Shown here in pieces: positions 15,893 through 62,490 of a stretch of DNA of 64,000 bases (position 1 is the first letter of the stretch; the number at the start of each line of letters is the position of its first letter). Below the pieces are notes generated by a model. That model did no database searches, was not told the origin of the DNA, and was given only the letters and a program-made list of their open reading frames with translations. Origin of the DNA: Comamonadaceae bacterium (GTDB taxonomy: Bacteria; Pseudomonadota; Gammaproteobacteria; Burkholderiales; Burkholderiaceae_C). The DNA lies in contig CANJWZ010000021.1 of NCBI GenBank assembly GCA_947478725.1, forward strand, positions 1 through 64,000, given 5' to 3'. Both the position numbers and the translations under genes were made by a program.

Positions 15893-15902
15893 AAGAACAA
15901 GA

Positions 15903-16553: not shown

Positions 16554-16562
16554 AGACCTGTT

Positions 16563-17324: not shown

Positions 17325-17366
17325 AAATGTGCAAATCGGACCTAGCGGCGCTTCAAATACCGCTGG

Positions 17367-17681: not shown

Positions 17682-17968
17682 ATAGTCTCCGTGTTTAATC
17701 ATGAGGGCATCCCAGTGCACCTTCCTTAGCCGATGTTGCATGCGAATCCGGCTGTCGGCAATGCATTGCGCAGAAAAGAAGTTGTTCCAGCAAAGTGTGC
17801 AAATGCGATCTTACGAGCGCCTAAGATTTTGTAGCGCCTATCAAGCTGGACCACCGCATGATAAGTAAAAAGTTGATCGAAATCGGTGCGTCGCCTGATC
17901 TTGCTGAGCTGTCGGACGCTTTACTAGCGCTGGGAAAACTAAGCTGGATAGATGATTTTCATACCCGC

Positions 17969-18958: not shown

Positions 18959-18962
18959 TAGG

Positions 18963-33524: not shown

Positions 33525-34514
33525 ATGACCTGCCCACTGCGCCGCCATGCCATCACCATCGTCACCGCCATCATCGCAGGGCTGTTGCCCATGACGGCAG
33601 CCGTTGCCCAGCAGGGCACTTGGCCCGAGCGCCCCATCCGGATCGTCGTGCCCTATGGTGCCGGCGGCAGCGTGGATGCCATAGGCCGCACGCTGGCGCA
33701 GGAACTGAGCACCCGTCTGGGCCAGCCGGTAGTGGTGGAAAACCGCGTGGGAGCCGGTAGTAATGTGGGTTCTGCCTTCGTGGCCAAGGCGCCGCCCGAC
33801 GGCTATACGCTGCTACTCACCTCGCCCGGTAACGCCGTCAACGTGACGCTGTTCAAGCGGATGCCCTACGACGTGAAGACCGAGCTGACGCAGGTGGCTG
33901 TGGTCGGCCGCGCGCCCGGCATCTTGCTGGTGCGTCCAGACTTCCCAGCCAACAGCGTCAGGGAATTGGTGGCGATGGCTAAGAAAGAGCCGGGCAAGCT
34001 GAACTTTGGCTCTGGCGGCCCCGGTAGTTCGGAGCACCTGGCCGGCGAGATGTTCAAGACCAATGCAGGCATCGACATGACCCACGTGCCCTATAAGGGT
34101 GGCGCGGCCGTGATCAACGACATCCTCGCCGGACAGATCCAGGTTTTCTTCACCAACCAAGCCAATGTCATTGGCCAAATCAAAGGCAACATGGTGAAGG
34201 TGCTGGGCGTGGCCTCCAACCAGCGGTCCGCGCTGGTGCCCAACGTGCCGACTTTTGCCGAGCAGGGCTACCCTGAGCAGCAGGTTTCAGTTTGGTGGGG
34301 CATCGCCGCACCGGCCAAGACACCCACCGCCACCCTAGACCGCCTGAACAGCGAAATTCTGGCTGCGGGTGCGTCCCCGACCATGCGTGCCCGCCTCTCC
34401 GAGATGGGCGCCGAGTCCATCACCACCACCCGTGCGCAGGCCAACGCCTTCCTGGACGAGGAGATCGTCCGCTGGGGCAAGGTGGTGAAGTCTTCCAATG
34501 CCCAGGCCGATTGA
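33525..34514 (+). CDS. Bug-family (TctC) tripartite tricarboxylate transporter binding protein
   Basis: This 329-residue periplasmic binding protein has a signal peptide of about 28 residues ending VAQQ. The mature protein starts with the Bug pattern WPERPIRIVVPYGAGGSVDAIGR. It also has the GAGSNVGSAFVAKAPPDGYTLL and HVPYKGGAAVINDILAGQIQVFF segments. Bug proteins bind carboxylates and similar small anions. No TctA or TctB membrane gene is in the window, so the membrane partner must be encoded elsewhere. It lies 33 bases after the racemase-like gene. Confidence 0.92.
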   Translation: MTCPLRRHAITIVTAIIAGLLPMTAAVAQQGTWPERPIRIVVPYGAGGSVDAIGRTLAQELSTRLGQPVVVENRVGAGSNVGSAFVAKAPPDGYTLLLTSPGNAVNVTLFKRMPYDVKTELTQVAVVGRAPGILLVRPDFPANSVRELVAMAKKEPGKLNFGSGGPGSSEHLAGEMFKTNAGIDMTHVPYKGGAAVINDILAGQIQVFFTNQANVIGQIKGNMVKVLGVASNQRSALVPNVPTFAEQGYPEQQVSVWWGIAAPAKTPTATLDRLNSEILAAGASPTMRARLSEMGAESITTTRAQANAFLDEEIVRWGKVVKSSNAQAD

Positions 34515-34530
34515 TCCAGGAGCCCTGCAA

Positions 34531-35532
34531 ATGAACCCCGTGAACCCTATTCAACTGCGCCGACGCACCGTGCTTAGCGCGCTGGCCGCCGGTGCGGCCG
34601 TCACCACACTGCCCCTGCATGCCCAAGCCGAGTGGCGGCCCAACCGGCCGATTCGGCTGCTCAACGGCTTTGCCGCCGGCGGCTCGGGCGACCTGGTCTC
34701 GCGCATCATCGCGGACGGTCTGAAGAACCTACTGGGCCAGCCCGTGGTGGTGGACACCCGCGCCGGCGCCAGCGGGTTCATCGCCGCCGAGGCGGTGGCG
34801 CGCTCGGCGCCCGATGGCTACACCATCGGTTTCGCAACCATGAGCATGTTCGCGGTGGCGCCGCAGATGCCTGGCATGAAGATCCCGATCGATGTTCAAA
34901 AGGAGCTGACGCCCATCGGCACCATCGCCAACATTTTTTCGCTGATGGTTTCGGCGCCAGACGCACCCTTCAAGACCGTGCCGGAGCTGGTGGCCTATGC
35001 CAGGGCCAACCCGGGCAAGGTGACCTACGCCTCCGCCGGCACCGGCTCCATCGGCCACCTGGCCGGCGAGTTGTTCCAGCGCCAGGCCGGCGTCGACATG
35101 GTCCATGTGCCGTACAAGGGCGGCTCGCAAGCCATGATCGACCTGCAGGCCGGCCGCGTGCACCTCCTGCTGGGCAATATGTCCGACTACCTGCAGCAGG
35201 TCAAGGCCGGCTCCCTGCGCGGCATCGCGTTCGGTGGAGAGCGTGGGTCGCCGCAGCTACCGGGTCTGCCGCTGATCAGTCGCACGCTGCCCGACTTCAG
35301 CATGAACAACTGGTTCGCGCTGGTCGGCCCGGTTGGCCTGCCGGAGAACGTCACCGGGTCTATCTCACGCGCGATGCAGATGGCGCTGGCCGATCCCGCC
35401 GTCATGCAACGGCTGTCGGACCTGGGTGCCGAGCCGCTGCCCAATACGCAGCCGCAGTTCGTGCGTCTGATCGAGTCGGAGCGCAAGCGCTGGGGCGATG
35501 TGATCCGGACTGCCAACATCAAGGTCGAGTGA
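34531..35532 (+). CDS. Bug-family (TctC) tripartite tricarboxylate transporter binding protein
   Basis: This roughly 333-residue protein starts at the ATG at 34531, after a CAGGAG site and 16 bases past the preceding Bug gene. Its N-terminus, RRRTVLSALAAGAAVTT, looks like a Tat-type signal ending LHAQA. The mature part has WRPNRPIRLLNGFAAGGSGD, the GASGFIAAEAVARSAPDGYT loop and HVPYKGGSQAMIDLQAG. Two tandem, non-identical Bug genes probably bind related substrates. Confidence 0.92.
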   Translation: MNPVNPIQLRRRTVLSALAAGAAVTTLPLHAQAEWRPNRPIRLLNGFAAGGSGDLVSRIIADGLKNLLGQPVVVDTRAGASGFIAAEAVARSAPDGYTIGFATMSMFAVAPQMPGMKIPIDVQKELTPIGTIANIFSLMVSAPDAPFKTVPELVAYARANPGKVTYASAGTGSIGHLAGELFQRQAGVDMVHVPYKGGSQAMIDLQAGRVHLLLGNMSDYLQQVKAGSLRGIAFGGERGSPQLPGLPLISRTLPDFSMNNWFALVGPVGLPENVTGSISRAMQMALADPAVMQRLSDLGAEPLPNTQPQFVRLIESERKRWGDVIRTANIKVE

Positions 35533-36285: not shown

Positions 36286-37068
36286 ATGACCCAAACTCCC
36301 GCCCATCCCGAGCGCGAGTACAGCGCCAGCGCCCTTCTGGCCATCGCCGTGCCCCAGGCCAACCCGATCGTGGAGCCCGAGTTCTGCGCCTTGGCTCCCG
36401 ACGGCGTGGGCGTCATCGCAACCCGCCTGCAGGGCAGTCGCACCGATTCCGGCAACCGGCTGGTGCAGTACCTGGACAACCTGGGTACCAGCATCGAGGC
36501 CTTTGACACCGCTCGCCCTGATGTGCTGGGCTTCGCCTGCACTGGCACCAGCTACCTGATTGGGCAGGACGAGGAGCGCAAGCGCATCGATGCGTTCGAG
36601 CAGCGGTTCGGTTTTCCCATCGTCACCGCCTCCCAGGCTATCCTGTCGGCCTGCCAGTCGCTGGGCATCAGGCGCATCGCACTGCTGGCGCCATACCCAG
36701 CCTTCTTAGTAGATGCGAGCCTGCAGTACTGGACGGCATCCGGGCTGGAGGTGGTGAGCTTCGCGCGCAAGGAGATGGATCCCATCGATACGCGTGCGGT
36801 GTACCGGATACGGGCGCCGATGGTGCTGGAGGCTGCAGCGGCGCTGAATGTAACCAACGCGGATGCCATCCTGTTGTCTGGCACCGGCATGCCGACGCTG
36901 CGCGTGATGCCGCAGCTGGCCCAGCTCACGAGCCGCCCGGTACTGTCGTCGAACCTGTGTCTGGCATGGGCGATGCTGAGGGCGGCGGGGGTCGAGCCGC
37001 CGGCTGCGCGCAAGGAACTCGGTGAGACCTTGTTGGGAGGGTGGGTGGAGCGGGCTGCGCGGCTTTGA
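36286..37068 (+). CDS. Maleate isomerase/arylmalonate decarboxylase-like protein
   Basis: This 260-residue protein of the Asp/Glu racemase superfamily carries the first-half motif LGFACTGTSYLIG with a conserved Cys near residue 85. The second-half motif AILLSGTGMPTLRV lacks the second Cys (SGTG in place of SCT). Maleate isomerases need both cysteines, while arylmalonate decarboxylase keeps only the second, so the reaction here is open. It starts 7 bases after the AhpD-like gene and ends the high-GC block. Confidence 0.8.
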   Translation: MTQTPAHPEREYSASALLAIAVPQANPIVEPEFCALAPDGVGVIATRLQGSRTDSGNRLVQYLDNLGTSIEAFDTARPDVLGFACTGTSYLIGQDEERKRIDAFEQRFGFPIVTASQAILSACQSLGIRRIALLAPYPAFLVDASLQYWTASGLEVVSFARKEMDPIDTRAVYRIRAPMVLEAAAALNVTNADAILLSGTGMPTLRVMPQLAQLTSRPVLSSNLCLAWAMLRAAGVEPPAARKELGETLLGGWVERAARL

Positions 37069-37445: not shown

Positions 37446-38720
37446 CTAACGATTTTTTATTTTATATATTCTAATGATAAAGATCGCAATTCCGGTCATT
37501 AAAAGAGGCCATTGTATAGGAACAAAATTAACCCAAAGTTCTAATGAAAACCCGATGATTGCTAAACTTAAAACTTGAATAATTCTTCGAAGAACGTTGA
37601 ATTTATTGGTTACAAAAGGCAAAGAAAAAATTAGTCCAAGAAAAAAAACAAGCGTCCCGATTGCTATAGAAAGAGTGTATGAAGTAACCTTAATTCGGTA
37701 CGCGACATAGAAGGCGTCAATCAGTGTAAAGCCTGACGCAATTATGTATATACTTAAAAAAAACTTTAATATAAATGAACTACGCTGGTTTTTTGGTTTG
37801 AGAAATCTGATTGCTTTATCGTCTGAGATATTTTTGGGTTGCGAAGGCTGTGAAGTCGGAATCACGACTTTTTTAGTAAGGTCATGAATAATAGGAACTT
37901 TGGAAAGTGTGGATTTAGCTATTGGCCGTGGAGTTGCCTGATTAAAATTAATCTCAATCCAACTGCTAGCCGTTTCGAGGTCGTACTTGGCTTGAGCATC
38001 AATATGTTGCGAAAGCATTCTATGCGCAAGATGAGTAAGTTCGTATTTTTTATTATCTTGTAAAAAAGACATTTGAGCGCACTGACTCAACATATTTCCC
38101 AGGCTATGGGAAATGACACACCATGGTTTTTCAATGTTATCAACAACCAAATTCGAACTCCAATCAGATTTGTAGACACCCATTGGAATTTCAATTTTAA
38201 AATCATATTTTTCAGGCTCTAAAAGTTGATTTCTTTTGAAAAATTGTTGCCAGTCTTTTTTGATGGCCTCATATAAAATTGGGTGTTGCTGTCTGTCATC
38301 TGGTAACATAAAAAGAGGTTTTTCCAGTGGAAATCGTTTTGAGACAGCCAAACTGAAGTCAATTAAACAAACTTCGATGTGAGCAGAATTTAATGCCTGC
38401 TTCACCACAAAATTGCGAAGCGCGAGATCAAGATGCCAAACATTTAATTTAGCTAAGTCCTCTACAATTTTTAAAGATTGCTTAAGCGCATCGAAAGCCT
38501 GTGACTGGCCTTGTGAAGAAGAAGGTAGTTCCTTCAACCATTCCATTAAATTGACGCCTGCATGCGCCATTTCAATATATCTCTCTTTTTTGTTGTTCGA
38601 ATGCACTTCTGGAACTGAAGCATTTAATTGATTCAGCAAATCAAGAAATTGATACTCCCTAGATTGGGCATATTCCCCACCTGCACTGTCGGGAAATTCT
38701 TTTCTGTAGGTATTAGTCAA
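37446..38720 (-). CDS. Serine/threonine kinase-like membrane protein
   Basis: This 424-residue protein has a protein-kinase C-lobe. The catalytic loop HLDLALRN (His96, Asp98, Asn103) matches the HRDxxxxN motif, and IDFS (Asp121) replaces DFG. The glycine-rich loop is missing, and the N-lobe is reduced to about 40 residues with a possible Lys7 and Glu22 pair. Residues about 315-420 form four membrane segments, so the kinase part faces the cytoplasm. The start is a TTG nine bases after the phosphatase stop, in the same frame, with GAGG ahead of it. It is the last gene of the AT-rich operon. It may be an active divergent kinase or a pseudokinase. Confidence 0.7.
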   Translation of the reverse strand: MTNTYRKEFPDSAGGEYAQSREYQFLDLLNQLNASVPEVHSNNKKERYIEMAHAGVNLMEWLKELPSSSQGQSQAFDALKQSLKIVEDLAKLNVWHLDLALRNFVVKQALNSAHIEVCLIDFSLAVSKRFPLEKPLFMLPDDRQQHPILYEAIKKDWQQFFKRNQLLEPEKYDFKIEIPMGVYKSDWSSNLVVDNIEKPWCVISHSLGNMLSQCAQMSFLQDNKKYELTHLAHRMLSQHIDAQAKYDLETASSWIEINFNQATPRPIAKSTLSKVPIIHDLTKKVVIPTSQPSQPKNISDDKAIRFLKPKNQRSSFILKFFLSIYIIASGFTLIDAFYVAYRIKVTSYTLSIAIGTLVFFLGLIFSLPFVTNKFNVLRRIIQVLSLAIIGFSLELWVNFVPIQWPLLMTGIAIFIIRIYKIKNR

Positions 38721-38729
38721 AATACAACC

Positions 38730-39401
38730 TCAGATGAATTTAAGCCAAATCATTGCGACGCTTGTGTCATCCAAGCAACCAGAGTTTTGAGCATCGATTG
38801 CAAGTGAATTGCATAAATAAGCCAGATCAGCTTGACTTGGCTCGTTTCTGCCAAGCATTGCGAGACGGCTTTTAAGATTTTCTTCAGATGTTTTGAGACC
38901 CGGCCCATCAGACATCAGAATGGCACAGTAAAGTCCTTTGGGGTCGTGGTTACGAACATGTAATGTTTGACAAACTTCAGAGCCAACAAGTTGTGTGGGG
39001 TGTCCGTTTTCATCAAGGTCGCGGGGCATTTTTTCAACGCATTTCCATGGTGCAAAACCACCCCATGATTTTTGAAATAGCCAAAGGAAACTGTCTCCAA
39101 TGGAGGCTAATTCCAGCTCCTGATTGCTTGCTTTAACTCGCAAAAGGGTGCTGCCAGTTTCAGGAAACTTTTTGCACATTTCATCATGCCGTGTCATGAG
39201 GTGATCGGACAAATGTCCAGGATCATCCGTGGCCATGACTTGACTTAACCAGTCTGCGGCCAGTCCGCTGCCAGAACAACTGTTGGCCCCATCGCATAGG
39301 GTGAAGATATTTGAATTCTCATTGGCACTGAAGGCATCAAATCCTTTGCCATCACTTGCGTTGACGTTAAGCGCGCAAGCATAAACACACCTCAAACTCA
39401 T
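38730..39401 (-). CDS. PP2C-type protein phosphatase
   Basis: This 223-residue cytoplasmic phosphatase has the PP2C metal motifs in order: FDAFS (Asp22), CDGAN (Asp37, Gly38), ETGSTLL near 81-87, IGDSFLWL near 101, MSDGPG (Asp166) and DDTSVAMIW (Asp211, Asp212). It is shorter than typical PP2C domains (about 240-250 residues) but all key acidic residues are there. It would remove phosphate from Ser/Thr placed by the adjacent kinase. It overlaps the FHA gene by four bases and is followed by the kinase-like gene after nine. Confidence 0.85.
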   Translation of the reverse strand: MSLRCVYACALNVNASDGKGFDAFSANENSNIFTLCDGANSCSGSGLAADWLSQVMATDDPGHLSDHLMTRHDEMCKKFPETGSTLLRVKASNQELELASIGDSFLWLFQKSWGGFAPWKCVEKMPRDLDENGHPTQLVGSEVCQTLHVRNHDPKGLYCAILMSDGPGLKTSEENLKSRLAMLGRNEPSQADLAYLCNSLAIDAQNSGCLDDTSVAMIWLKFI

Positions 39402-40444
39402 GCAACAGCTTTCGGTCTAGGTGTTCCTTCGTGATCTTGTGGACTTGCATCATCCAAAAATATTTGAATGCTTGCATATTCCGCATGAGTGCCTATAGGG
39501 TTAATTTGTGCCGCTACCTCTGAATTAATTCCTGTACGCAAAGTTACTGCTTCTTTGTGTTTTAACGGATAAAGTTTAAGTTTTTCCAAAATCAAGCCAT
39601 CTTCACGCATGCAGCTTAAGGAAGCACTATCTGGAAGGTAATAATAAACTTGATCCATAATTTCAAGGATAATGAGTTGGCTTCTAGAAACATAAGTCGA
39701 ATTTACTTTGAATGGACTAAAGCCATACTGGCTGCTTAAGGGTGTTGGCTCTCTTCCAATGAGTGCTGGTAATTTTAAAAATTCCTTTCGGTTGCCAAGT
39801 CCATCATTAACTTGAATTTCCACCAAAATTTCAGAATGTATATTTTTTGAGCTGGATCGACTTAATATTTCGGTTTGTGAAAATGTTTTATTGGCGGTAG
39901 TTGATGGCGTAGATAAAGCCTTACCAAAGCGACTTGAAGTCACTTCTCTTTTGAATGGTCCACTGAGACTCGCAACAACTTCGAAAGAAATCCGACGACC
40001 TTTTAAAGAAATTTGAAAGCCTTCTTCACTCGTTAAGCTTTCCAATGAATCTGTTCCCAGTTGAACTGTAGCTTCAAAGTCATTTGGCACACGAACAAAA
40101 CTACCGCGTGAAGATCGATACTCTCGTTGGATAATTTGTTGAAAGAATTTTTTCCTAAATTCAGTATCTACTGATTCATGTGTAGATAGAAATTCTTCAA
40201 ATTTTTTGGCTACTTCTCTGTCTTTAGGTGAAATTACCAAACTGTCTAGCAAGAAATAACTTTCTTCTAAGACAGATTTCATGTATCGTGTTTCACGGTC
40301 TTCGATAGCTTGTTTTACGGCTTGCGCAGAAACACTTTTTAACTCCAAAAGAATGGAGTCGACAAAATCATCAGTTTGTCTCGTTTTAAATTTCTCTATA
40401 TTAGAATTAGAAATATTGCCCTTGAAGAAGTCTATTAAATTCAT
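39398..40444 (-). CDS. FHA-domain-like protein
   Basis: This 348-residue protein has a probable C-terminal FHA domain at about residues 222-300. It shows LIGREP (Gly230, Arg231), YVSRSQ (Ser253, Arg254) where FHA domains have SRxH, and PDSAS (Asp272, Ser273) where they have D-x-S-x-N-G. FHA domains bind phosphothreonine peptides. The first 135 residues are charged and helical and not recognised. It carries no membrane segment. Lying next to a phosphatase and a kinase, it is a likely reader of their phosphorylation. The missing His weakens but does not exclude phospho-binding. Confidence 0.6.
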   Translation of the reverse strand: MNLIDFFKGNISNSNIEKFKTRQTDDFVDSILLELKSVSAQAVKQAIEDRETRYMKSVLEESYFLLDSLVISPKDREVAKKFEEFLSTHESVDTEFRKKFFQQIIQREYRSSRGSFVRVPNDFEATVQLGTDSLESLTSEEGFQISLKGRRISFEVVASLSGPFKREVTSSRFGKALSTPSTTANKTFSQTEILSRSSSKNIHSEILVEIQVNDGLGNRKEFLKLPALIGREPTPLSSQYGFSPFKVNSTYVSRSQLIILEIMDQVYYYLPDSASLSCMREDGLILEKLKLYPLKHKEAVTLRTGINSEVAAQINPIGTHAEYASIQIFLDDASPQDHEGTPRPKAVA

Positions 40445-40455
40445 GATGAAACCTT

Positions 40456-40731
40456 TTATCCTATTTTAATTTCAAAAATACTACTGTCATGAATCTTGAG
40501 AGTTAAAATATTTTCAAGATTAAAATAAAGCGGTGACAGGGTATCAAATACCAACTCTTGGAACGACGATGATGGCACTGCACTGAAAACTGAATCAGGA
40601 ATCATTCCGATTAATTTACTATGTGTTCGTAATAATTTTCTAAGTTCTAATGAAAATGCAAGTAGCTGAACCGCTGGCTGACTTTCCTGGTCAAATGAAA
40701 ATGATGAAATTATGTTTTCATCTCTCATCAT
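40456..40731 (-). CDS. Hypothetical small protein of the SEDS-PBP-FHA operon
   Basis: This 91-residue protein is not recognised. It has no membrane segment or signal peptide, and a mixed helix (AFSLELRKLLRTHSKLIGMI) followed by strand-like hydrophobic stretches (ELVFDTLSPLYFNLENILTLKI). It overlaps the transpeptidase stop by four bases and ends 11 bases before the FHA gene, so it is cotranscribed with them. The tight packing and matching base composition argue that it is real. It may be a partner of the FHA protein. Confidence 0.65.
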   Translation of the reverse strand: MMRDENIISSFSFDQESQPAVQLLAFSLELRKLLRTHSKLIGMIPDSVFSAVPSSSFQELVFDTLSPLYFNLENILTLKIHDSSIFEIKIG

Positions 40732-42629
40732 TTTTTATCTCCGTTGACTGACAGTTCTGAAGCCAAATGTATGGCCAGCTCACTTGCAACATGAACGCTG
40801 TTAATTGACGCTTTCGGGTACGCAACAATCCCAATGGATAATTTTCGACCATCTGAATCGAGTTCAGACTTCATTATCCATTTGTTAAGTTGCGCTACAT
40901 CAATGATGCCCGTGAATAAAGTTGCTCCGCTGAAACCACGATCTTTTTGACTGACTGTACCTGTCTTAGCCCATAAGCCGCAGTCGCCAGAGCACGGGCG
41001 TTTAAATTCCCTTTGAAAAGCACTGGAAACGGTACCAGGGCCGCTCCAGCCAGTCTCTGCTGGCTCGACTACTTTGTGCATCCCAATCAAAACCGTCTGA
41101 GCGGCTTGACGCAAAGCCGCAGTAGGCGCTGAGCCTTCTTTAGAGCCGTTCAATTGTTTAATTAAGCTTGGCCGAACAAGTTTTTGTCCTTGTGATGTGC
41201 GGTAAATTTGTCCTGATAAGTGCGCTAAACCAAGTGCACTTGTGCGCGAATCACCCGCACCTATTGAAGATTGGACAGCAAGTGCTGTATTGAAATATGT
41301 GGCAGATCCAGGTGACTTCCTTTTGCCTTGTCTTATTTCATCGTACTCTTTCCAGCTAAGCATGTTCCCAGTCTTTGAACTTGAGTCTGTTATCTTAATT
41401 TTCCCAATAAATCCGGGAAGAAACATTGATTCTGAATCGCTAAATAAGCTTAAGCGCCCACATTGAATATCATTGTTTGGACAGTCATGCTTCCAATTCA
41501 ATAACTTAGCAATGGACTTGATTTTTTTTGGATGTTGACACTCATCCAATTGGCCATCACAGATTGCTTGTTTCTCCCACCATTCGTTGCGCTTAGTGAC
41601 AACTGAGTCTATTTGTTGGCCAGATGTTTTGATTTGCCTCTGGAGCATGAGCTGATCTATATTTCCATTCTCAGCCAAAACCATCGCGTGCAAAAGTTTT
41701 GCAGTAGATGCTGGTGGTGTTTCAATCAGAAGTGCTCCTAAGTTGCCATAGGCTTTAAATTTTTCACAAGGCCCTGACCAGCAAAGCGTTGCCAGGATAT
41801 CTCCTGATTTTGTATCCATAATGACTACTGATACATGCTTAAGAGCCGGTAATTTTTGGAATTTATTACAGTTTTCAGGACGTATAAGGCATCGCTCTAA
41901 ATCATCTAGTTTACCTTGTAATATGGGCTCCAAAGTTAATATTAATTCATTTTGATTTATTTTTGTCAATGTCTCATTTGGCGCATTAGCTAAAGCAATT
42001 CTGCTGAATTCAATTGTTTTCTTCATGCCAGAATTAGCTAAGAATGATGGTGTGCTGAGATCTAAATTTTCACGACGGCATCGCACTGGGTTACCAACGG
42101 CTAAGCCAAAATTTTCAAGGTTTTGGTAATAAATACAGGGCAATCTTCTATTCCATGAAACTCTTTCTGTTAAAGCTTCCTCAAAGAAAGTACTATTAAT
42201 TTTAATTTTTTCGTTATCTCTATTAATAAAATTTATTTTAGATAAGGCCTGCATATTTTCTATCCATTCACTGCAAGACAGACTAAAATCGATTTTTTGT
42301 TGAATTTTATGAAGAAGATTATCAGCACTTTCTGAATTCAATGAGTAACCATCCATCACACGAATTTTCAGAATGGTACGGCCACGATCGTTACAGGGTA
42401 GCGATTCTAGACTCGGTTTTTTTGCGATTTCTATCGGATCTAATTCATGTTGAGTTGCTTCGCTCATCATTTTCAATTGATATATTTTTCGGGTGGGTTT
42501 AAATATAGAAGTCTCATTCGGTGATGATGAGGCTTGATCAAACCATAAAATAGTTGCAGCTAAAACGGCGAAAAGCCATAAAGCAAGCCAAATAAGTCGA
42601 ATTAATAGTTCGCGTGAATAGTGATTCAT
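40728..42629 (-). CDS. Penicillin-binding protein-like transpeptidase (class B type)
   Basis: This 633-residue protein has an N-terminal anchor at about residues 10-30 and a periplasmic part. The transpeptidase signature is clear at both ends: SxxK as Ser308-Thr-Ala-Lys311 (PPASTAKLLHAMVLAENG), and KTGT at 555-558 (LWAKTGTVSQ). The segment QSSIGAGDSRTSALGLAHL near 453 matches the conserved region before it. I cannot find an SxN motif with confidence. The region 350-395 is Cys-rich (CDGQLDEC, CPNNDIQC), unusual for this family. It overlaps the SEDS gene by four bases, so the two probably form a glycosyltransferase-transpeptidase pair in the cell envelope. Confidence 0.85.
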   Translation of the reverse strand: MNHYSRELLIRLIWLALWLFAVLAATILWFDQASSSPNETSIFKPTRKIYQLKMMSEATQHELDPIEIAKKPSLESLPCNDRGRTILKIRVMDGYSLNSESADNLLHKIQQKIDFSLSCSEWIENMQALSKINFINRDNEKIKINSTFFEEALTERVSWNRRLPCIYYQNLENFGLAVGNPVRCRRENLDLSTPSFLANSGMKKTIEFSRIALANAPNETLTKINQNELILTLEPILQGKLDDLERCLIRPENCNKFQKLPALKHVSVVIMDTKSGDILATLCWSGPCEKFKAYGNLGALLIETPPASTAKLLHAMVLAENGNIDQLMLQRQIKTSGQQIDSVVTKRNEWWEKQAICDGQLDECQHPKKIKSIAKLLNWKHDCPNNDIQCGRLSLFSDSESMFLPGFIGKIKITDSSSKTGNMLSWKEYDEIRQGKRKSPGSATYFNTALAVQSSIGAGDSRTSALGLAHLSGQIYRTSQGQKLVRPSLIKQLNGSKEGSAPTAALRQAAQTVLIGMHKVVEPAETGWSGPGTVSSAFQREFKRPCSGDCGLWAKTGTVSQKDRGFSGATLFTGIIDVAQLNKWIMKSELDSDGRKLSIGIVAYPKASINSVHVASELAIHLASELSVNGDKK

Positions 42630-44575
42630 GACAACTCTTTAACTCGTTCATTCCAGATTAAAACCAATGCAATTGCACATGTAGGAGCCAACATGGCAGA
42701 CAGTCCAATACTGAGCAGTGGTGTCCCCAGTCCTGTTAAAGGGATTAGTCGCCAATTTCCAAAAAATGTGACAACCGTTTGAAATAAGCTGGCAATAAAA
42801 AGAAAGAAGGCTATCGTTGATAAAAATCGATTACTACCACTCCCAGCTAGAAATCTCCAGCAAGCAAATGACGCCATCATTAAAAAGAAAAGAACGAGGA
42901 AGATGAAGAAAAACTTTGTTAAGTGAGGACCCCATAGGCCATTGATCAAGGTTGGGACATAGTCACTGAGGACCTGTGGAGGCAAACAAGTTCCTTCTTG
43001 ACTGCACCATTCAATTCGACCGACTCCAAACCCGGATGGTTTAGAGGCTTCTGTAAAGGCGATAAGTCGAGCAAAATCACTGACAGAAGCCGTCATCGGG
43101 TCAAGCATCAGTTGGATCCGACCTTGGACTTTTTCGGTTTGGCTCATCAAGGCACCCATCAACGCCATGGCAGATAATGAGAAAATTGCAGGTTTAGCAC
43201 CAAATACCAAGAAGAGGGTGGTTATCAGCACCAGAGCAGCAATCAAAGCCCCTCCAAGATCTTTAAATGCGATTGAAACAACTGTGAGTACGATAAATCC
43301 AAAGGCCGTAAAATTCAAAAGTGGTGTTGATATGTGGCCAAGAACCTGTCGATTAGCGCTTAATGAATTGTCAGTTTTGTCCGACTTTGCGAGGAAAAGT
43401 TTTAGCCCTCTTTGCAAAACTTCGGGTGCAAACTTTTTTACCAAATGTAATACGCGGCCTTGATCAGTCATTAAACTTGCAGCCAATACTGCCAATCCCA
43501 ACTTAAGTGTTTCAGCGCCTAATGCAGGACTTTGTAGCCCATATGCTGAAAAAACTAGAATCGCGACAAGCCATATGCTTGATATTTGATATTTTAAAAT
43601 GATGCTTGTTAATTTATGAAACCATGGCTTAAAGATCAGAATTGCTGCAAGAAGAAGGTGTCCTAACAATTGAATTTCTAATTGTCTGTTGAGCTGATTC
43701 CCCAGCGGATTGAGAGAGTAGTAAAGATTATTTTGACCAAATAACATTGCTGCATCTGCTGCAATGGTTAGCCCGAGGGTTGATAGACAGAGGTAGGTGG
43801 CAATACAAAATAAGCCAGTCCATCGTGCCCTCCAATAACCAATTACAAGCACACTTGCAGAGCACAATAGAACTAATATTGGTAAAAACTTGAGGATGCT
43901 TTCCTGCTGTTCACCGCGCTTCATTAGCTTTTCTGAACTCTCATTCAATCGCGCAATGTCCCATTTTTTTTGCTTAAATTGATCTTTTGCGCTGTCATAG
44001 TTTGAGCCATTGATTAACAATAATAACTGGAATGTTTCTTGATAAGAATTGAAATTTTCTTGATTTGAAATTTTGGTTTGAAGATTTTCTGAAGCTTCAA
44101 TTTTTGTATTCATTGATGAAATCAAGCTTGCCAGAATCGGACGATCTTTTGCCTTGATCTCAATTTCTGATCTGATTTTCTTATACCATTCCAAATTTTC
44201 ACTGGCTTGTATTTGTGCCAACACAAGCGTTTGGTCGGCACTATCTGACTTCATGACTTTCAGATTCGCAATAGCTAGTGCTGTCCGACAATCCACAAGT
44301 TGACTCGCTTGCCCAGTCCATTTCTCGCAAAAATCCTTTGCGTTTATTGTTGGCTGCGGGCGAGATTTAAAAGTTTCACTGTCGATGATATATTTTATTC
44401 CAATCACATTGCTTTGGATAGCGGTTGGAATTTGTTGAATCAGATAAAGCTGAAATACCAGTATAAATAAAGAAAATAAAAAAGGCCATAGAAGACCTTT
44501 TCCCCTATGCTTTTTATTTAATTCTTCTGAAATATGAGAATTCATAAAATACCAAATTCGTCCCTGAAAATTCAC
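42626..44575 (-). CDS. SEDS-family (FtsW/RodA-like) peptidoglycan glycosyltransferase
   Basis: This 649-residue protein has one membrane helix near residue 30-50, then about 190 mostly polar residues, then about ten membrane helices. The SEDS core is recognised from FKDLGGALIAALVLITTLF (like the QPDLGTA motif of FtsW, Asp kept) and from the C-terminal LIPLTGLGTPLLSIGLSAM (like PLTGVPLPFISYGGSS). SEDS proteins polymerise lipid II together with a class B PBP, here the next gene. FtsW and RodA are about 370-420 residues, so the large N-terminal periplasmic-type insertion is unusual. Start is a GTG at 44575 or an ATG at 44545. Only a transposase fragment lies upstream. Confidence 0.8.
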   Translation of the reverse strand: MNFQGRIWYFMNSHISEELNKKHRGKGLLWPFLFSLFILVFQLYLIQQIPTAIQSNVIGIKYIIDSETFKSRPQPTINAKDFCEKWTGQASQLVDCRTALAIANLKVMKSDSADQTLVLAQIQASENLEWYKKIRSEIEIKAKDRPILASLISSMNTKIEASENLQTKISNQENFNSYQETFQLLLLINGSNYDSAKDQFKQKKWDIARLNESSEKLMKRGEQQESILKFLPILVLLCSASVLVIGYWRARWTGLFCIATYLCLSTLGLTIAADAAMLFGQNNLYYSLNPLGNQLNRQLEIQLLGHLLLAAILIFKPWFHKLTSIILKYQISSIWLVAILVFSAYGLQSPALGAETLKLGLAVLAASLMTDQGRVLHLVKKFAPEVLQRGLKLFLAKSDKTDNSLSANRQVLGHISTPLLNFTAFGFIVLTVVSIAFKDLGGALIAALVLITTLFLVFGAKPAIFSLSAMALMGALMSQTEKVQGRIQLMLDPMTASVSDFARLIAFTEASKPSGFGVGRIEWCSQEGTCLPPQVLSDYVPTLINGLWGPHLTKFFFIFLVLFFLMMASFACWRFLAGSGSNRFLSTIAFFLFIASLFQTVVTFFGNWRLIPLTGLGTPLLSIGLSAMLAPTCAIALVLIWNERVKELS

Positions 44576-44577: not shown

Positions 44578-45570
44578 TCAGCGCATCACCCAGTTCATCG
44601 AACTGGAGTTAGTCCGTTTGACAGTCAAGTTTTGCTGTAACTTTCGCAGCAAATTGGTTAAATGGGTCAAACCCGCTGCCTGAAACAGCCGCAAGAAAAG
44701 GCCCACCTCTTTCTTGATGGTCATTCGCAGCAACCAGACGATGTTGTCGCCCGCAGCGCACAGCACCGCGTGCAGACTGTCGCCTTCTGCGCCCCTTGAG
44801 GTGGCAGCGATTCATTCGGTGGTTAGCTTTCAAGTGGCCCATGATCGGCTCAAGGGCTTGCCTGGGTTTGAGCATCGTCTTTTCTTGCTCTGTCATTGAT
44901 TTGAATGTGCCGCGGTGCTTGATGTCGATGACCCGGTAGGCTAGGTCGACGTAGACCGTCTCGGGCGTCAATCCGGCGGCCTGCACCAAGATGCTGGCTT
45001 GCTCGACTTGTTTGTTCAGTGTGTGGCCGTCATATGGGTTACCTGTGAAGGCTCTGGCTCCCACGATCAAGGTTCCTTTGAGGGTGGTTGCAATGCCCAC
45101 CTTCACGCCGAACTCATAGGGACGGCGGCTCTTGACTTTGGAGAGGCACTCAACTTTTGGTGCGCACCAGCTGTACAGCTCGGGTTGCTTGTCTTTGGCA
45201 TTTACTTTGGCTTTGTGGCTTCGCGTTTGGGCGATCAGCCGCACCGCTTTCGCAACGCTGTGCCCCAAGGCTTCTTGCACCGCTTGGATTAAGGCGGTCA
45301 TCTTGCGCGAGACATCACTGTGTAAGCGGCCCACGATGGTGGTTTGGCGCTTGATGACGCTACGCATGCGTTTGAGCTGGCGGACATGGGCGTAACGACC
45401 GGCTTTGTAGCCCAGCAACTGGCCGTCTTTGGCATAGGCTTGTTTGAGCTCAATGCCTTCGCCCTTGGCTGCCTCAACGAGTTTGCCTCTAGCCGTCTCC
45501 AGCAGTTGGCTGTCGGTGGGGTGGGTAATGGCGTTTCTTGAGCCGTGGAGTCGAAGATGATTTGGCTGAG
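44578..45570 (-). mobile_element. IS5-like transposase, truncated and frameshifted
   Basis: The catalytic part of an IS5-type transposase is spread over three frames. The first piece (IIFDSTAQET, near 45545) holds the first Asp. After a frameshift it continues THPTDSQLLETARGKLVEAA and then the long frame ending near 44780 (SRRPYEFGVKVG, VYVDLAYR with the second Asp, EPIMGHLKANHRM with the Glu). A second frameshift leads to LHAVLCAAGDNIVWLLR, ending at 44578. The N-terminal part is missing. The element is therefore inactive. It lies 3 bases upstream of the SEDS start and has no clear terminal inverted repeats. Confidence 0.8.
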
Positions 45571-45768
45571 CTCATTCCTGGCAACATCGGCGCTCAGTCC
45601 CAACACCAGCACCGCGGCGCGCTCTTGCGCCAGCTCGGCTTGCAGCTCATCCATTGTGCGAACCACACCAACCAACAGGCCCGCCTGCGCCAGCTGCGCC
45701 TGCTCAGTCGGCGCGAGCGGGTCAAAGGGGTCCGACCACACCAGGTGGATAGGGACTGTCTTAGGCAT
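45565..45768 (-). other. Unidentified coding-like fragment joined to the transposase remnant
   Basis: Upstream of the transposase similarity the same frame reads PIHLVWSDPFDPLAPTEQ and VVRTMDELQAELAQERAA, and it stays open without a Met to beyond 45900. The composition is that of real high-GC coding sequence, but it is not part of any transposase I know. It may be the start of a host gene cut by the insertion. I cannot name it. Confidence 0.35.
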
Positions 45769-53334: not shown

Positions 53335-54294
53335 ATGGCAGATCGAATGAAAACTGTGTTCATGATCGCAGCGGGCCTGCTTCTGGCGGCTACCGCGCAA
53401 GCCTTCCCCGAACGCCCGGTCCGCATGGTTGTGGGGTTCGCCCCGGGAGGCTCCGATATTTCTGGACGGCTGATTGGGCAAAAGTTGTCTGATTTGTGGG
53501 GACAGCCGGTGGTGGTGGACAACAAGCCTGGCGCGGCTGGCAACATTGGCGCTGATTTAGTGGCCAAAGCAGTGCCGGATGGCCACACCATCTTGCTGCT
53601 TGTCAACTCTTACACGATCAACACCTCAATCTACCGGAATCTCTCTTGGGATTTGCTGCGCGATTTCGCACCCATCGGCAGGTATGCCACCTCGCCTATG
53701 GTGGTAGTCGTCAACGACAAAATTCCAGTAAAGAACTTTTCCGAGTTCGTTGCCTATTCCAAAGCCAACCGAGGCAAGATCAACTACGGTTCAGCGGGTA
53801 CTGGTACCGCGCCGCACTTGGCTGGGGAACTGTTCGCCATGCGCTCTGGGATCGAGATGACGCACATTCCCTACAAAGGCTCCGCGCCCTCGGTCACAGC
53901 CTTGGTGGCGGATGAAGTTCAGGTGTCGTTTGGGGCAATGTCGGCATTTGACGGCATGGTCAAACAAGGGCGTCTGCGCGCCCTGGCTGTCACCACTGCC
54001 GCCCGCTTTCCCCAGTTGCCTGACGTGCCCACTGTCTCAGAAAGTGGCCTGCCTGGCTTTGACGTTGACATTTGGTATGGCTTTCTGGCCCCCGCCAAGA
54101 CCCCACCCGCCATCTTAAAAAAACTCAGTGACGACCTCGCCCGCGTGATGGCTGACCCTGACCTGCAAAGCAAACTGCGCGAGCGCGGGATGGAACCCGC
54201 TTACCTTGACAGCGAGAAAACAAGCGAGCTGATGAAGCGCGACGTGGCACGCTGGCGCGAGGTGGCCAACAAGCTGAAGTTGGTTCTGGAATGA
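53335..54294 (+). CDS. Bug-family (TctC) tripartite tricarboxylate transporter binding protein
   Basis: This 319-residue periplasmic protein has a signal peptide (MKTVFMIAAGLLLAATAQA) preceded by four residues, with GGAGTCGTC before the ATG. The mature part has FPERPVRMVVGFAPGGSDISG, then GAAGNIGADLVAKAVPDGHT and HIPYKGSAPSVTALVADEV. It overlaps the following lactonase gene by four bases. No TctA/TctB genes are nearby. Confidence 0.92.
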   Translation: MADRMKTVFMIAAGLLLAATAQAFPERPVRMVVGFAPGGSDISGRLIGQKLSDLWGQPVVVDNKPGAAGNIGADLVAKAVPDGHTILLLVNSYTINTSIYRNLSWDLLRDFAPIGRYATSPMVVVVNDKIPVKNFSEFVAYSKANRGKINYGSAGTGTAPHLAGELFAMRSGIEMTHIPYKGSAPSVTALVADEVQVSFGAMSAFDGMVKQGRLRALAVTTAARFPQLPDVPTVSESGLPGFDVDIWYGFLAPAKTPPAILKKLSDDLARVMADPDLQSKLRERGMEPAYLDSEKTSELMKRDVARWREVANKLKLVLE

Positions 54295-58536: not shown

Positions 58537-59799
58537 ATGAGCCGATCTATCCTCGCTGAACACCTGCACCCCGGCGACCATGTGGTGGTGGGCCAAGTGA
58601 CGGCGGAGCCTGCTGGCTTGGTGGGAGAGTTGTTTTCGCTGGCGGCGGGGCTCGCACAGGTAAATGTGTTTTGCGGCTTTTCGCTCAACCCGGCCTGGGG
58701 CGCGCCGATAGACCCAGCGCTAAGCGTGACGACCTACTGCGGACTGGGGACGATCCGTCACCTCGTTGGGCGCGGCGCGGCGCGCGTGATTCCGGCACAG
58801 TTATCCCAACTAGCGTCGTATTTCGACTCTGGCGTGCTCAAAGCCGACGTGGTGCTGTTGCAGGTGTCCCCGGCTGATGCAGACGGTTACCACAGCCTTG
58901 GGTGCGCCCTGGATTATGTATGGAACGCCGCGCAGGCTGCCCGCGTGGTGCTGGTCGAAATCAACCCTAACGTGCCGCGCACCCAATCGACCTGCCGATT
59001 GCATGGCAGTCAAGTCGTTGTTGCGGGGGAGAGCGCGCTTCAGCTGCCCGAACTCCCAAGCGAAGAACCAGATGGGCGGCAGATAAGCATCGGTCGCAAC
59101 GTTGCGCGGCTGGTGCCGGACGGCGCAATGATCCAGTTGGGCATTGGAAGCATGGCCGCAGCGGTGGCGCGGGCGCTGGCTAAGCACCGCGGTCTGCGGG
59201 TGCGATCCGGCATGGTGGGTGACTGGTTGCCCGAATTGCTGGCCAACGGCGCGATAGACAGCTCGGCGCAGGAGTCGTGCATGGCCTCGCTCGCGGTCGG
59301 CACGCGCAGTCTTTACGATTTCGCCGGTTCGCGCGGCATACTGAGCTTCGCCACGTTGGCGCAACTCGTTTCGCCGAGCGGCCAAGCTGCTGGTGCGCCT
59401 TTCATGGCGATCAATTCCGCTCTGGAGGTGGATTTGTACGGGCAGGCGAATGCCGAGTTTCTAGGCTCGCGCTATGTCGGTGCGATTGGTGGGCAATCGG
59501 ACTACTTCCGCGCTGCGCGTCGATCTTACGGCGGGCTCGCCATCCTTGCCCTGGCTTCCAGCGCAGGTATGCCTGCAAAAAGCCGTGTTGTGGCACGCAT
59601 CGCAAATGACTACGTGACGACGGCGCAAAGTGACATCGATATTGTTGTCACGGAGCACGGTGTGGCTGATATCCGCGCCACGACGCTCGCCGAGCGACGC
59701 AAACTCATCACGTCCCTGGCCGACCCACAGTTTGTAGCCAGATTAGACGAGCAAGAATGTGAAGATATGCCTTTAGCCCACCGTGAAATCCGAGTCTAA
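58537..59799 (+). CDS. Acetyl-CoA hydrolase/4-hydroxybutyrate CoA-transferase-family protein
   Basis: This 420-residue enzyme of the acetyl-CoA hydrolase/transferase family has VEINPNVPRT near residue 147, the IQLGIGSMAAAVARAL segment near 203, GGQSDYFRAARRSYGGLAILAL near 320 and the C-terminal TEHGVADIRATTLAERRKLI. It moves CoA between short acids. It starts 39 bases after the beta-rich protein. A second CoA-transferase of another class (CaiB type) lies upstream at 51972. Confidence 0.9.
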   Translation: MSRSILAEHLHPGDHVVVGQVTAEPAGLVGELFSLAAGLAQVNVFCGFSLNPAWGAPIDPALSVTTYCGLGTIRHLVGRGAARVIPAQLSQLASYFDSGVLKADVVLLQVSPADADGYHSLGCALDYVWNAAQAARVVLVEINPNVPRTQSTCRLHGSQVVVAGESALQLPELPSEEPDGRQISIGRNVARLVPDGAMIQLGIGSMAAAVARALAKHRGLRVRSGMVGDWLPELLANGAIDSSAQESCMASLAVGTRSLYDFAGSRGILSFATLAQLVSPSGQAAGAPFMAINSALEVDLYGQANAEFLGSRYVGAIGGQSDYFRAARRSYGGLAILALASSAGMPAKSRVVARIANDYVTTAQSDIDIVVTEHGVADIRATTLAERRKLITSLADPQFVARLDEQECEDMPLAHREIRV

Positions 59800-59802
59800 A
59801 AA

Positions 59803-60030
59803 CTAAAAATATGTCGTATCAGTCAGCTTCAAGGTGTACCCATCAGGTGCGGCCCGGACCCCAGCTTCGTAGCCAAGGCGCCTTGCAACGAAGGCCTGGG
59901 ATTCGATGATGAATTTTTTGTCAGTATTTTCTAAGATCTTATGGGTGATCATTCGAGTAAGAATGTGCTCAGTTCTTCCCGATGCGAACGAGGTGATGAT
60001 TCGAATTTGTCGAAGGGATAATCGGCCCAT
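59803..60030 (-). pseudogene. Remnant of a Bug-family binding protein gene
   Basis: The minus-strand frame reads RQIRIITSFASGRTEHILTR, then ITHKILENTDKKFIIES and RRLGYEAGVRAAPDGYTL, ending TDTTYF at a stop. This aligns over its whole length with the first 90 or so mature residues of the Bug protein at 62491 (RPVKILVPFASGGVADLLAR, RIGYEAGAKAQADGYTF, TDVTYT). Key glycines are lost and the C-terminal two thirds are missing. It lies three bases after the CoA-transferase stop, in the opposite direction. Confidence 0.7.
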
Positions 60031-60323
60031 ATATTGATCTAAATGACGTAAGCAGCAAGCAAAATTAGAAAATTTCTGATTTTTGGCTATGATCTGGTGA
60101 ATGGTTTCAATTAATTTTTCATGAGTTCTGGTCGGGAAATAATTTGGCTAATAGTCTATGGAGTCTTTGATACATAGGTTACTTAGATCATGAGCTATAT
60201 GCTAGTCATATTTTAATAAATTTCCATCAATAATTAATATTTTATGATTTATAAAACGCGACTTCAATTTAATTAAGATACCATTTAAATGCATTGTTAA
60301 AACTAAAATCTCGAAAGACTAAA

Positions 60324-61313
60324 ATGTTTCAAAAATTCAAAACTATTTCAATTTTAATTTCTATATTTTTTGTTCAACTATTCGCAATTGACTACGCGTC
60401 GGCGCAAGCTTTTCCTTCGCGGCCAATACGCATTGTTATTCCCTATGCACCTGGTGGTGGAAGTGATATCCTTGCAAGACCTGTGGCGCCACTCATGGCT
60501 GAGTCACTTAAACAATCAGTGGTGATTGACAACAAAGGTGGCGCTGCAGGCAATATTGGCACACAACAAGTTGCCACCAGCACGGCTGATGGCTACACCT
60601 TGCTACTTGCCAACAACTCGCAAGTGATTAATCCTCTTATTTATAAACAGGTAGGGTATGACATCGCAACTGATTTTGCACCAATTACCTTGTTGGGTAC
60701 GTCTCCTGTGATGGTGGTGGTTCACCAATCAATGGGTATATCTAGTCTTAAAGAATTAGTTGCTATTGCAGCTAAAAATCCAGGCAAATTAAATTTTGGA
60801 AGTCCTGGGGCAGGCACTCCTGGTCATATGGCTAATTTACTGTTTAATCAACAAGCGCGGTTGAACATGACTCACATTCCTTACAAAGGATCTGGCCCCA
60901 CCACCATGGCTTTGTTGCAAAAAGAAATCGATGTTTTTTTTGGTACTCCAGCTGCAGTTGAGCCCTATATTAAGTCTGGTGACTTCAAAGCATTGGCGGT
61001 AACGTCAAAAAATCGGTTTGCTTCTTTTCCAACGGTGCCAACAGTTGCCGAGTCAGGTATTGCAGAGCTACAAGATTTTTCTGTTGAAATTTGGTGGGGC
61101 TTACTCGCTCCTTCCAAAACGGATCCAGAAGTACTAGACAAGATCCATGCGGCCGCCATCAAGGCTGTCAACGACCCTAAAAACCGTGAACGATGGCTGA
61201 CCCAAGGCATGGTACCGACCACCACAACGCGAGCTGAATTTCAAACACTGATTCGCAACGATATCAAACGTTGGGGACAAATCGTCAAAGATAACCAAGT
61301 GAAAGCCGACTGA
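60324..61313 (+). CDS. Bug-family (TctC) tripartite tricarboxylate transporter binding protein
   Basis: This 329-residue protein starts at the ATG at 60324. A signal peptide of about 28 residues ends ASAQA. The mature part has FPSRPIRIVIPYAPGGGSDILAR, then GAAGNIGTQQVATSTADGYT and HIPYKGSGPTTMALLQKEI. The gene and its neighbour are clearly richer in A and T than the rest of the right half of the window, suggesting separate acquisition. It is followed after seven bases by an esterase gene. Confidence 0.92.
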   Translation: MFQKFKTISILISIFFVQLFAIDYASAQAFPSRPIRIVIPYAPGGGSDILARPVAPLMAESLKQSVVIDNKGGAAGNIGTQQVATSTADGYTLLLANNSQVINPLIYKQVGYDIATDFAPITLLGTSPVMVVVHQSMGISSLKELVAIAAKNPGKLNFGSPGAGTPGHMANLLFNQQARLNMTHIPYKGSGPTTMALLQKEIDVFFGTPAAVEPYIKSGDFKALAVTSKNRFASFPTVPTVAESGIAELQDFSVEIWWGLLAPSKTDPEVLDKIHAAAIKAVNDPKNRERWLTQGMVPTTTTRAEFQTLIRNDIKRWGQIVKDNQVKAD

Positions 61314-61320
61314 GTCAATC

Positions 61321-62247
61321 ATGGCTATTGCACCAGAAATTTTGTCCGTGCTGTCGGAGATCAATCAGCAACCCGCTATGCACCAAACACCCATTGCGAC
61401 ATTGCGCAAAAGAAGACCTCGCATCGGTTTGGAAAATATTCATCCAATTAAAGGTACACAAGACATCACCATTGCATCTGATGGTTATGACATGCCAGCA
61501 CGCATTTATCATCCACTAGAAACTAGCATTCAACCCTCGTTAATGATTTTTTTTCATGGTGGTGGTTTTGTATTTGGTGGACTTGAGGGCTACTACGATC
61601 ACGTATGCCGAATGCTCTGTGATCATTCAAATAGCGTTGTCGTTTCTGTTGATTACCGTTTAGCGCCTGAAAATAAATTTCCTGTCGCCACAAACGATGC
61701 GTGGAATGCCTTGCTTTGGAGTCGCAACAACATCACACTAATTGGCGCCAAGAAAGATCAAGTATTTGTTGCAGGAGGTAGCGCTGGTGCTAACTTGGCG
61801 GCGGTTACTGCCATGCGTGTGCGCGACCAAGCAGATTTTCAAATACAAGGGCAAGTCTTATTTTATCCGATCACCGATTTCCCCCAATCACCCACTCAGT
61901 CATTTCAAACCTACAACAATGGTTTTTATTTAACAGGTAATGACATTTTGTGGTTTTGGGATCAATATCTACAAAGCCCTGCCGACAGGCTTAACCCCTA
62001 CGCTGCTCCATTACAGGCGAAGGATTTCAGCCAATTGGCTCCCGCTTTTGTATTAACTGCAGAGGCTGATCCGTTGCGTGACGAAGCTGAAAGCTATGCA
62101 AGAAAAATGGAAGAAGCTGGTGTCAAAGTAAAACTCACACGATATGACGGCATGATCCATGGCTTTATGGCGTTTCCTACTCCACGTTCCGACGAAGCAT
62201 TGTTAGAAGCCTCAGAATGGATCAAGAGTCAAAAACACGAGTCATGA
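61321..62247 (+). CDS. Alpha/beta hydrolase, hormone-sensitive lipase (HSL) family
   Basis: This 308-residue esterase has the HSL oxyanion motif FHGGGFVFGG near residue 76-85 and the nucleophile motif GGSAGANLAA with Ser near 153. An Asp in TAEADPLRDEAE (near 248) and a His in DGMIHGFMAF (near 278) complete the triad. It hydrolyses carboxylic esters in the cytoplasm. The gene pairs with the preceding Bug gene in an AT-rich two-gene unit, which may take up and cleave a small ester. Confidence 0.92.
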   Translation: MAIAPEILSVLSEINQQPAMHQTPIATLRKRRPRIGLENIHPIKGTQDITIASDGYDMPARIYHPLETSIQPSLMIFFHGGGFVFGGLEGYYDHVCRMLCDHSNSVVVSVDYRLAPENKFPVATNDAWNALLWSRNNITLIGAKKDQVFVAGGSAGANLAAVTAMRVRDQADFQIQGQVLFYPITDFPQSPTQSFQTYNNGFYLTGNDILWFWDQYLQSPADRLNPYAAPLQAKDFSQLAPAFVLTAEADPLRDEAESYARKMEEAGVKVKLTRYDGMIHGFMAFPTPRSDEALLEASEWIKSQKHES

Positions 62248-62490
62248 GCGCTTAGATTTTTTAAAATGTGACCTCACCATCGAAAAATGCACTCCATAGC
62301 TGAGAGGTAAAAATCAGTTTTAACTGGGAGAAATTGACCCACCCCAATTTCCGTGCCAATCTAAAGTCCAGAAGTCCAATAATTTTAAAATAACATCGAA
62401 ATCGTGAATATTTTACGAATTCAAATAAGTTTTTTATGAAGGACCGGCTTGGATGAAAGTTACCTGTAAATGATCACCCTGGAGACAGAC

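Follow-up and report, generated by a model that had tools for sequence, protein, structure and literature searches.

The 64,000-nucleotide stretch of Comamonadaceae DNA analysed here (contig CANJWZ010000021.1, positions 1 to 64,000; hereafter the window) carries on its minus strand, at 37446-44575, a six-gene operon that is a real, recurrent and distinct module, with all six genes present in 18 of 23 other loci. We give a probability of roughly 0.6 to the reading that this operon encodes an extra, dedicated peptidoglycan synthase, formed by a predicted SEDS/PBP pair and switched by a phospho-threonine circuit of a predicted kinase, an FHA reader and a PP2C phosphatase. Wall builders combined with a kinase, a phosphatase and a phospho-reader are familiar chiefly from mycobacteria and their relatives, and no description of this module was found in the literature searched.

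Organization of the operon

An earlier interpretation of the letters (the sequence-only reading) had described six tightly packed genes with overlaps of 4 bases or gaps of 9-11 bases, and all six open reading frames (ORFs) were found at the places it gave. The gene order is SEDS-PBP-u91-FHA-PP2C-KIN, in which u91 stands for the 91-amino-acid (aa) protein and KIN for the kinase-like protein. The features are as follows.

42626..44545, minus strand: SEDS-like polytopic protein, 639 aa (NCBIfam ftsW, Pfam PF01098, alignment, scan for transmembrane (TM) segments)
40728..42629, minus strand: PBP-like transpeptidase (Pfam Transpeptidase, PbpB profile, alignment)
40456..40731, minus strand: 91-aa protein (u91), family unassigned (alignments, structure model)
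39398..40444, minus strand: FHA protein, 348 aa, with an N-terminal alpha/beta region, a C-terminal FHA domain and a TPRPKAVA tail
39455..39826, minus strand: predicted FHA domain, residues 207-330 (structure prediction; G230-R and S253-R254 motif)
39413..39424, minus strand: TPRP motif, residues 341-344 in the C-terminal tail of the FHA protein, candidate phospho-Thr site
38730..39401, minus strand: PP2C-type phosphatase, 223 aa (PDB profile, alignment)
37446..38720, minus strand: kinase-like protein, 424 aa (PDB profile, Pkinase matches, alignment, TM scan)
37923..37934, minus strand: TPRP motif, residues 263-266 of the kinase-like protein, in the linker preceding its TM-like segments (alignment)

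The 4-bp overlaps lie between SEDS and PBP (42626-42629), PBP and u91 (40728-40731), and FHA and PP2C (39398-39401), and the gaps are 11 bp from u91 to FHA and 9 bp from PP2C to the kinase gene. For the SEDS gene, the ATG at 44545, which gives 639 aa as in the near homologues, is a more likely start than the GTG at 44575 of the mechanical 649-aa ORF. Structure prediction was performed for the FHA and 91-aa proteins, and the folds of the SEDS, PBP, PP2C and kinase proteins rest on sequence profiles.

Recurrence of the module in beta-proteobacteria

About 5.8 billion proteins were searched, and from about 8000 candidates scored for each, 42 relatives of the SEDS protein and 69 of the FHA protein were obtained; the 91-aa protein gave 195 relatives, with two Tara ocean labels among the 120 listed. 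When one genome per species (84,980) was scanned with the SEDS alignment as query, 23 loci besides the window were found, all with beta-proteobacterial titles. The carriers include Limnohabitans sp. T6-20, 'Comamonas sp. lk', Comamonadaceae metagenome-assembled genomes (MAGs) and the MAGs TMED82, TMED100 and MED-G174. Each of the 18 loci with all six genes shows one of two layouts, collinear in 13 (L005-L009, L011-L013, L020, L022-L024 and L027) and divergent in five, with kinase-PP2C-FHA opposite SEDS-PBP-u91 (L014, L016, L017, L018 and L026). The kinase gene of L026 is interrupted by a contig end. In L017, from a Burkholderiaceae MAG, the PBP gene (11746-13844) is split over two frames, by a sequencing error or by decay, and the other five genes are open. 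The remaining five loci (L010, L015, L019, L021 and L025) are interrupted by contig ends. That 18 of the 23 loci hold all six genes and the other five end at contig edges speaks against a chance arrangement. The proposal of a separate module that recurs and has the look of phospho-regulation and a wall-directed role was supported; the gene-neighbourhood survey that the sequence-only reading had proposed returned the recurrence, within beta-proteobacteria and not in unrelated proteobacteria.

The six genes are under purifying selection. The dN/dS ratios between the window and L009 were 0.24 (SEDS), 0.17 (PBP), 0.28 (u91), 0.12 (FHA), 0.11 (PP2C) and 0.16 (kinase). Pairwise protein distances among the six proteins correlated with r of 0.942-0.991 over 17 loci (L017, with its PBP in two frames, and L025 and L026, with contig ends, were omitted), from which no more follows than an absence of exchange among the parts, since vertical descent by itself would also produce a correlation.

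A SEDS relative was detected in 2 of 299 genomes sampled from the same family, 7 of 399 from the order and 1 of 369 from the class, the window genome being counted in all three, and within the window's family the operon occurs sporadically. Of the seven carriers in the order sample, six come from two genera of a single different family and have genomes of 1.5-2.3 Mb. Six genomes of this sample were taken to be the same as L016, L018, L020, L022, L023 and L026, and G264 to be the same as L027, and each was counted once.

Predicted phosphorylation circuit

The motifs named in the sequence-only reading (SxxK, KTGT, the PP2C Asp residues, HxDxxxxN and DF) all fall in invariant or nearly invariant columns. 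Its family assignments held in part: FHA was supported by structure prediction, PP2C and kinase by profiles, and the SEDS and PBP profile matches were weak and pointed in the same direction.

In the kinase-like protein, K7, E22, D98, N103 and D121 were invariant in 18 of 18 aligned proteins, which supplies the beta3 Lys, the alphaC Glu, HxDxxxxN and the DFG-like Asp, and the profile reached PDB protein kinases at 2.4e-6. The best Pfam match of the window protein was to Kdo kinase (3.2e-3), and across members Pkinase was matched by 6 of 18 and Kdo by 4 of 18. The C-terminal part consists of a linker followed by three TM-like segments. The phosphatase has both the metal-binding Asp residues of PP2C, with D22, D37-G38, D165-G166 and D211-D212 invariant in 20 aligned proteins, and a profile match (1e-8 to PPM1B in the PDB; Pfam PP2C_2 at 9.2e-4).

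Pfam and NCBIfam gave no meaningful match for the FHA and 91-aa proteins of the window, and curated models recognized none of 52 homologues of the FHA protein. The C-terminal domain was confirmed as an FHA beta-sandwich fold in a model predicted with confidence, and the GR / SRxH motif was found with it. The N-terminal part is an alpha/beta region whose type is unassigned. The 91-aa protein has no TM-like segment; its model is a small alpha/beta fold (pLDDT 77) for which the fold search returned no confident match, and its relatives gave with curated models only one-member matches at E of 0.006 or weaker.

The kinase-like and FHA proteins share a short motif. The T, P and P columns of a TPxP sequence in the kinase linker were invariant in 18 of 18 aligned proteins, and some TPxP was present in 20 of 20. 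The FHA tail carries TPxP in 66 of 69 homologues, and in 20 of the 21 proteins from the window and the loci, the remaining one ending at a contig edge. In both proteins the motif is usually TPRP, and it is a strong candidate for a phospho-threonine site common to the two.

Divergent SEDS-like and PBP-like proteins

The SEDS protein matched NCBIfam ftsW over residues 408-640 at 2.9e-10 (39.8 bits against a cut-off of 337.5) and PF01098 (FTSW_RODA_SPOVE) at 1e-5, with 25.2 bits against a cut-off of 26.4, rising to 27.4 bits with the neighbouring stretches. PF01098 was reached at E<=1e-3 by 14 of 26 SEDS homologues, the best at 6e-9, and a family-model test over the conserved core placed the protein among SEDS. 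After an N-terminal TM-like segment, about 180 extra residues precede the next one, and this region contains the invariant Cys83 and Cys96 (numbering of the 649-aa ORF). D538, in the sequence LSDY, is invariant and lies near the canonical TDF site with an offset of about two residues in the profile alignment; it may be the equivalent of the catalytic Asp of the large periplasmic loop.

The PBP-like protein has a single N-terminal TM-like segment, and its S308-x-x-K311 and K555-T-G-T were invariant in 20 of 20 aligned proteins, some of which are only 26% identical to the window protein. It matched Pfam Transpeptidase (PF00905) at 7.8e-4, with 19.2 bits under the 22.1 cut-off, and the PbpB profile at 5.9e-4. 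The alignments contain four invariant Cys in SEDS and nine in PBP, which would lie in presumed periplasmic regions. From these features a glycan polymerase and a transpeptidase are predicted, both of them very divergent.

Such divergence could also mean that the two proteins no longer build wall and instead sense lipid II or wall damage, passing the signal to the kinase-FHA-PP2C switch. The weak family scores, a PBP SxN motif that is unrecognizable and the presumed periplasmic Cys residues would suit a sensor, but the invariance of SxxK and KTG down to 26% identity and the putative catalytic Asp D538 argue for enzymes, and we consider a sensor very improbable.

Canonical wall genes and candidate accessories

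Matches to MreB, PF01098 and PF00905 were found in all 12 genomes examined, eight with and four without the module. Two strong canonical SEDS matches were present in seven of the eight module genomes and one in the eighth, G987 (85% complete); G931 (87% complete) gave only two transpeptidase matches. Since the canonical wall genes are also present, the module is an addition, and replacement of a lost elongasome was ruled out. The idea that the window genome had no PBP2 was likewise dropped, as contig C13 has, near mreB, an open frame of 886 aa that matches a transpeptidase model.

A small lipoprotein adjoins the module, with the lipobox C-D-Q in 12 of 23 loci and C-G-Q in three more (L014, L017 and L025). 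In E. coli lipoproteins, Asp at position +2 marks the protein for the inner membrane. In seven of the 23 loci a cassette of three genes, c9, c10 and c11, lies near the module, and its three proteins have signal-peptide-like starts. The window genome has the lipoprotein and c11-c10-c9 on another contig (C12; L059 7229-12519, GC 0.51-0.57), with no second copy of the module nearby and one SEDS relative in the whole genome. The ORFs of this cassette encode 562, 736 and 243 aa, one with a long Ser/Ala/Gln-rich middle region; the cassette relatives gave no Pfam or NCBIfam match for any of the three proteins and no PDB match for two. c10 was found in both module genomes of the window's family and in none of 14 without the module.

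In five loci from marine or single-cell genomes (L019, L020, L022, L023 and L024), a type VI secretion system (T6SS) cluster ends right before the lipoprotein and the module; the gene-neighbourhood clusters show eight, of which three are repeats of the kind described above, and the number is therefore five. Pfam, run on L022, identified TssK, TssL, TssM and TssA. In L102/L044 (G959, taken as the same genome as L020), a divergent T6SS cluster that looks complete by eye leads into the module, and a pattern search of it found no second FHA or kinase gene.

This proximity raises the alternative that the module belongs to the T6SS, with kinase-FHA-PP2C as its control branch and the synthase making room for, or sealing, the apparatus. 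The TssM- and TssA-containing clusters beside the module in five of 23 loci fit this proposal, as does L102/L044, where the rest of the T6SS set lies upstream, and PpkA-Fha-PppA control of a T6SS is known (PMC12607579). As a general function it fails already, as the window genome has no TssK or VipB match; these markers were missing from four of eight module genomes, and a T6SS was found in one of four genomes without the module. We therefore ruled out a general T6SS module, and a T6SS role of this kind is distinctly unlikely. The lipoprotein, the secreted cassette and the T6SS cluster are candidate accessories of the module.

Probable recent arrival of the operon in the window lineage

The GC content of the operon is 0.39 in the window, against 0.56 for the rest (0.17 lower), and 0.39 against 0.52 in L009 (0.13 lower). 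These two are the outliers. In 21 loci with measurable flanks, the operon (GC 0.29-0.71) was within 0.10 of its flanks, so that AT-richness, which the sequence-only reading had made part of the story as an AT-rich island, was discarded as a property of the system. The window and L009 share a 7.1-kb block at 89%, and with it a decayed transposase end, and their surroundings differ. Given the outlying GC and the shared block in different surroundings, the block probably arrived recently in the window/L009 lineage by transfer. A truncated gene copy travelling with the operon (window 45298-45768) is whole in L009, beside genes that resemble fliE-fliF-fliG by eye, and the L009 copies (9067-9651 and 17465-18994) are imperfect direct repeats (81%) that flank the operon. 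Directly upstream of the SEDS gene in the window, 44609-45418 is a decayed DDE transposase (DDE_Tnp_1, 4e-4).

Two further suggestions of the sequence-only reading were not supported. For a mobile element's own system, no relative of the SEDS protein was found in 72,556 plasmid records, and a pattern scan of IMG/VR gave four stretches, none of which was confirmed; a plasmid- or phage-borne system was set aside. For defence, PADLOC system proteins gave weak matches alone, to the kinase (3.2e-5) and PP2C (5e-4).

The probable recent arrival also bears on a back-up or drug-tolerant synthase, in which the divergent pair, induced through phosphorylation by envelope damage, would take over when the normal enzymes are blocked, like an acquired insensitive PBP. 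It is in keeping with the scattered occurrence (2 of the 299 family genomes sampled), the apparently recent acquisition, and a very divergent PBP active-site region with its unrecognizable SxN and many invariant Cys. The same module, however, also occurs with shared gene neighbourhoods in small genomes from a different family (1.5-2.3 Mb), reading the flanks by eye brought up no resistance gene, and the link to the secreted cassette or the T6SS cluster is left unexplained. We judge a back-up synthase to be unlikely.

Elsewhere in the window, 59000-63000 (GC down to 0.42 in 2-kb windows) and 11000-18000 (down to 0.46) are also AT-rich. Several genes for periplasmic binding proteins of the tripartite-tricarboxylate type were seen by eye around the operon (33525-35532 and 53335-54294), and 36286-37068 holds an Asp/Glu-racemase-like gene.

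Proposed function

A dedicated synthase for a specialized envelope structure, one of the uses suggested by the sequence-only reading, is the best open reading, now with the lipoprotein, the secreted cassette and the T6SS cluster as candidate partners. In the proposed mechanism, the membrane kinase would sense an envelope signal and phosphorylate TPxP both in its own linker and at the tail of the FHA protein. The FHA domain would read phospho-TPxP, and this binding would cluster the kinase and the FHA protein at the membrane. The FHA protein could then gather or gate the SEDS/PBP pair, by recruitment or release, with its N-terminal region or the 91-aa protein as the link, and PP2C would reset the mark. 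The lipoprotein found beside many copies may act on the periplasmic side, and the wall patch made in this way would serve an envelope apparatus, namely the secreted three-protein cassette in Comamonadaceae and perhaps the T6SS in the marine group.

A more specific form of this proposal, which we put forward tentatively and with more doubt than belief, is a third Gram-negative peptidoglycan synthase complex beside the elongasome and the divisome. The SEDS/PBP pair would be gated by a closed TPxP loop, in which the kinase linker and the FHA tail bear the same mark, a single FHA domain reads it at both sites and PP2C erases it at both, and the local wall would seat envelope-spanning machines, the T6SS in marine lineages and, in Comamonadaceae, an undescribed apparatus of three secreted proteins. 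In the textbook view, Gram-negative walls grow through two SEDS/PBP machines under cytoskeletal guidance. If a conserved third set answers to Ser/Thr phosphorylation and nearly escapes Pfam, wall synthesis would be placed in a new way, and Gram-negative phospho-signalling would be tied to wall making, as in mycobacteria.

Several observations weigh against a phospho-switched synthase. On the enzyme side, Pfam Transpeptidase was reached at E<=1e-3 by one of 20 PBP members, profiles of 20 canonical SEDS or PBPs scarcely reach these families, and no position could be assigned to the PBP SxN motif: no S-x-N is conserved between SxxK and KTGT in 20 aligned proteins, the best candidate for the site being perhaps the invariant N348 in K-R-N-E-W-W-E. 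On the signalling side, the Gly-rich loop (beta1-beta2) of the kinase is absent and K7 is only six residues from the start; an earlier start is impossible in the window because the PP2C stop codon is in frame three codons upstream. The protein could be a pseudokinase, and TPxP could be a docking motif instead of a phosphorylation motif. As to partners, no apparatus is common to all module genomes: c10 was found in none of six module genomes of the other family, and the four without TssK/VipB matches are the window genome (98.98% complete), G264 (100%), G1013 (86%) and G1037 (84%). The window copy also lacks about 268 bp found ahead of the first gene in L009, and no promoter is conspicuous upstream of the operon; because this sequence between the transposase and the SEDS gene is missing, the promoter may have been lost, and the window copy may be poorly expressed.

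Comparison with known systems

By membership tests, the module is neither the actinobacterial cluster nor the T6SS phosphorylation pathway. The full actinobacterial order is fhaA-fhaB-pstP-rodA-pbpA-pknA-pknB, pstP included. PMC3989709 groups pknA/pknB with RodA, PbpA and two FHA proteins, and the kinases and FHA proteins control wall growth. SEDS, PBP, FHA and membrane kinase genes stand together in both. The order SEDS-PBP-u91-FHA-PP2C-KIN is different, however, and the named families that the window proteins match best are generic, with scores far under cut-offs; judged by order and by these matches, with no direct comparison of the proteins made, the two clusters do not appear orthologous. 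The window operon has one kinase, with neither a PASTA-type match nor a Gly-rich loop, one FHA protein with its unassigned N-terminal region and, in addition, the 91-aa protein; a lipoprotein is often present as well, and the Gram-negative carrier also has MreB and two canonical SEDS genes.

For the T6SS of Acidovorax citrulli, PMC12607579 describes how the PpkA kinase and Fha form foci that recruit the envelope machine, and that T640 of Fha is needed; the PpkA-Fha-PppA pathway serves the assembly of this machine. A predicted membrane kinase, an FHA protein with a candidate Thr site and a PP2C are likewise found in the module. The module differs in its link to a SEDS/PBP pair and in the four genomes that carry it without T6SS markers.

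Two other systems also come close. The FHA domain of the Bdellovibrio GGDEF enzyme DgcB (PDB 6hc0/6hc1) reportedly goes with a phosphorylated N-terminal tail of the same protein, whereas the motif of the module's FHA protein is C-terminal and shared with the kinase. In C. difficile sporulation a SEDS/PBP pair is said to be devoted to a special task, as is proposed here, but that pair is dcw-encoded and belongs to an endospore former.

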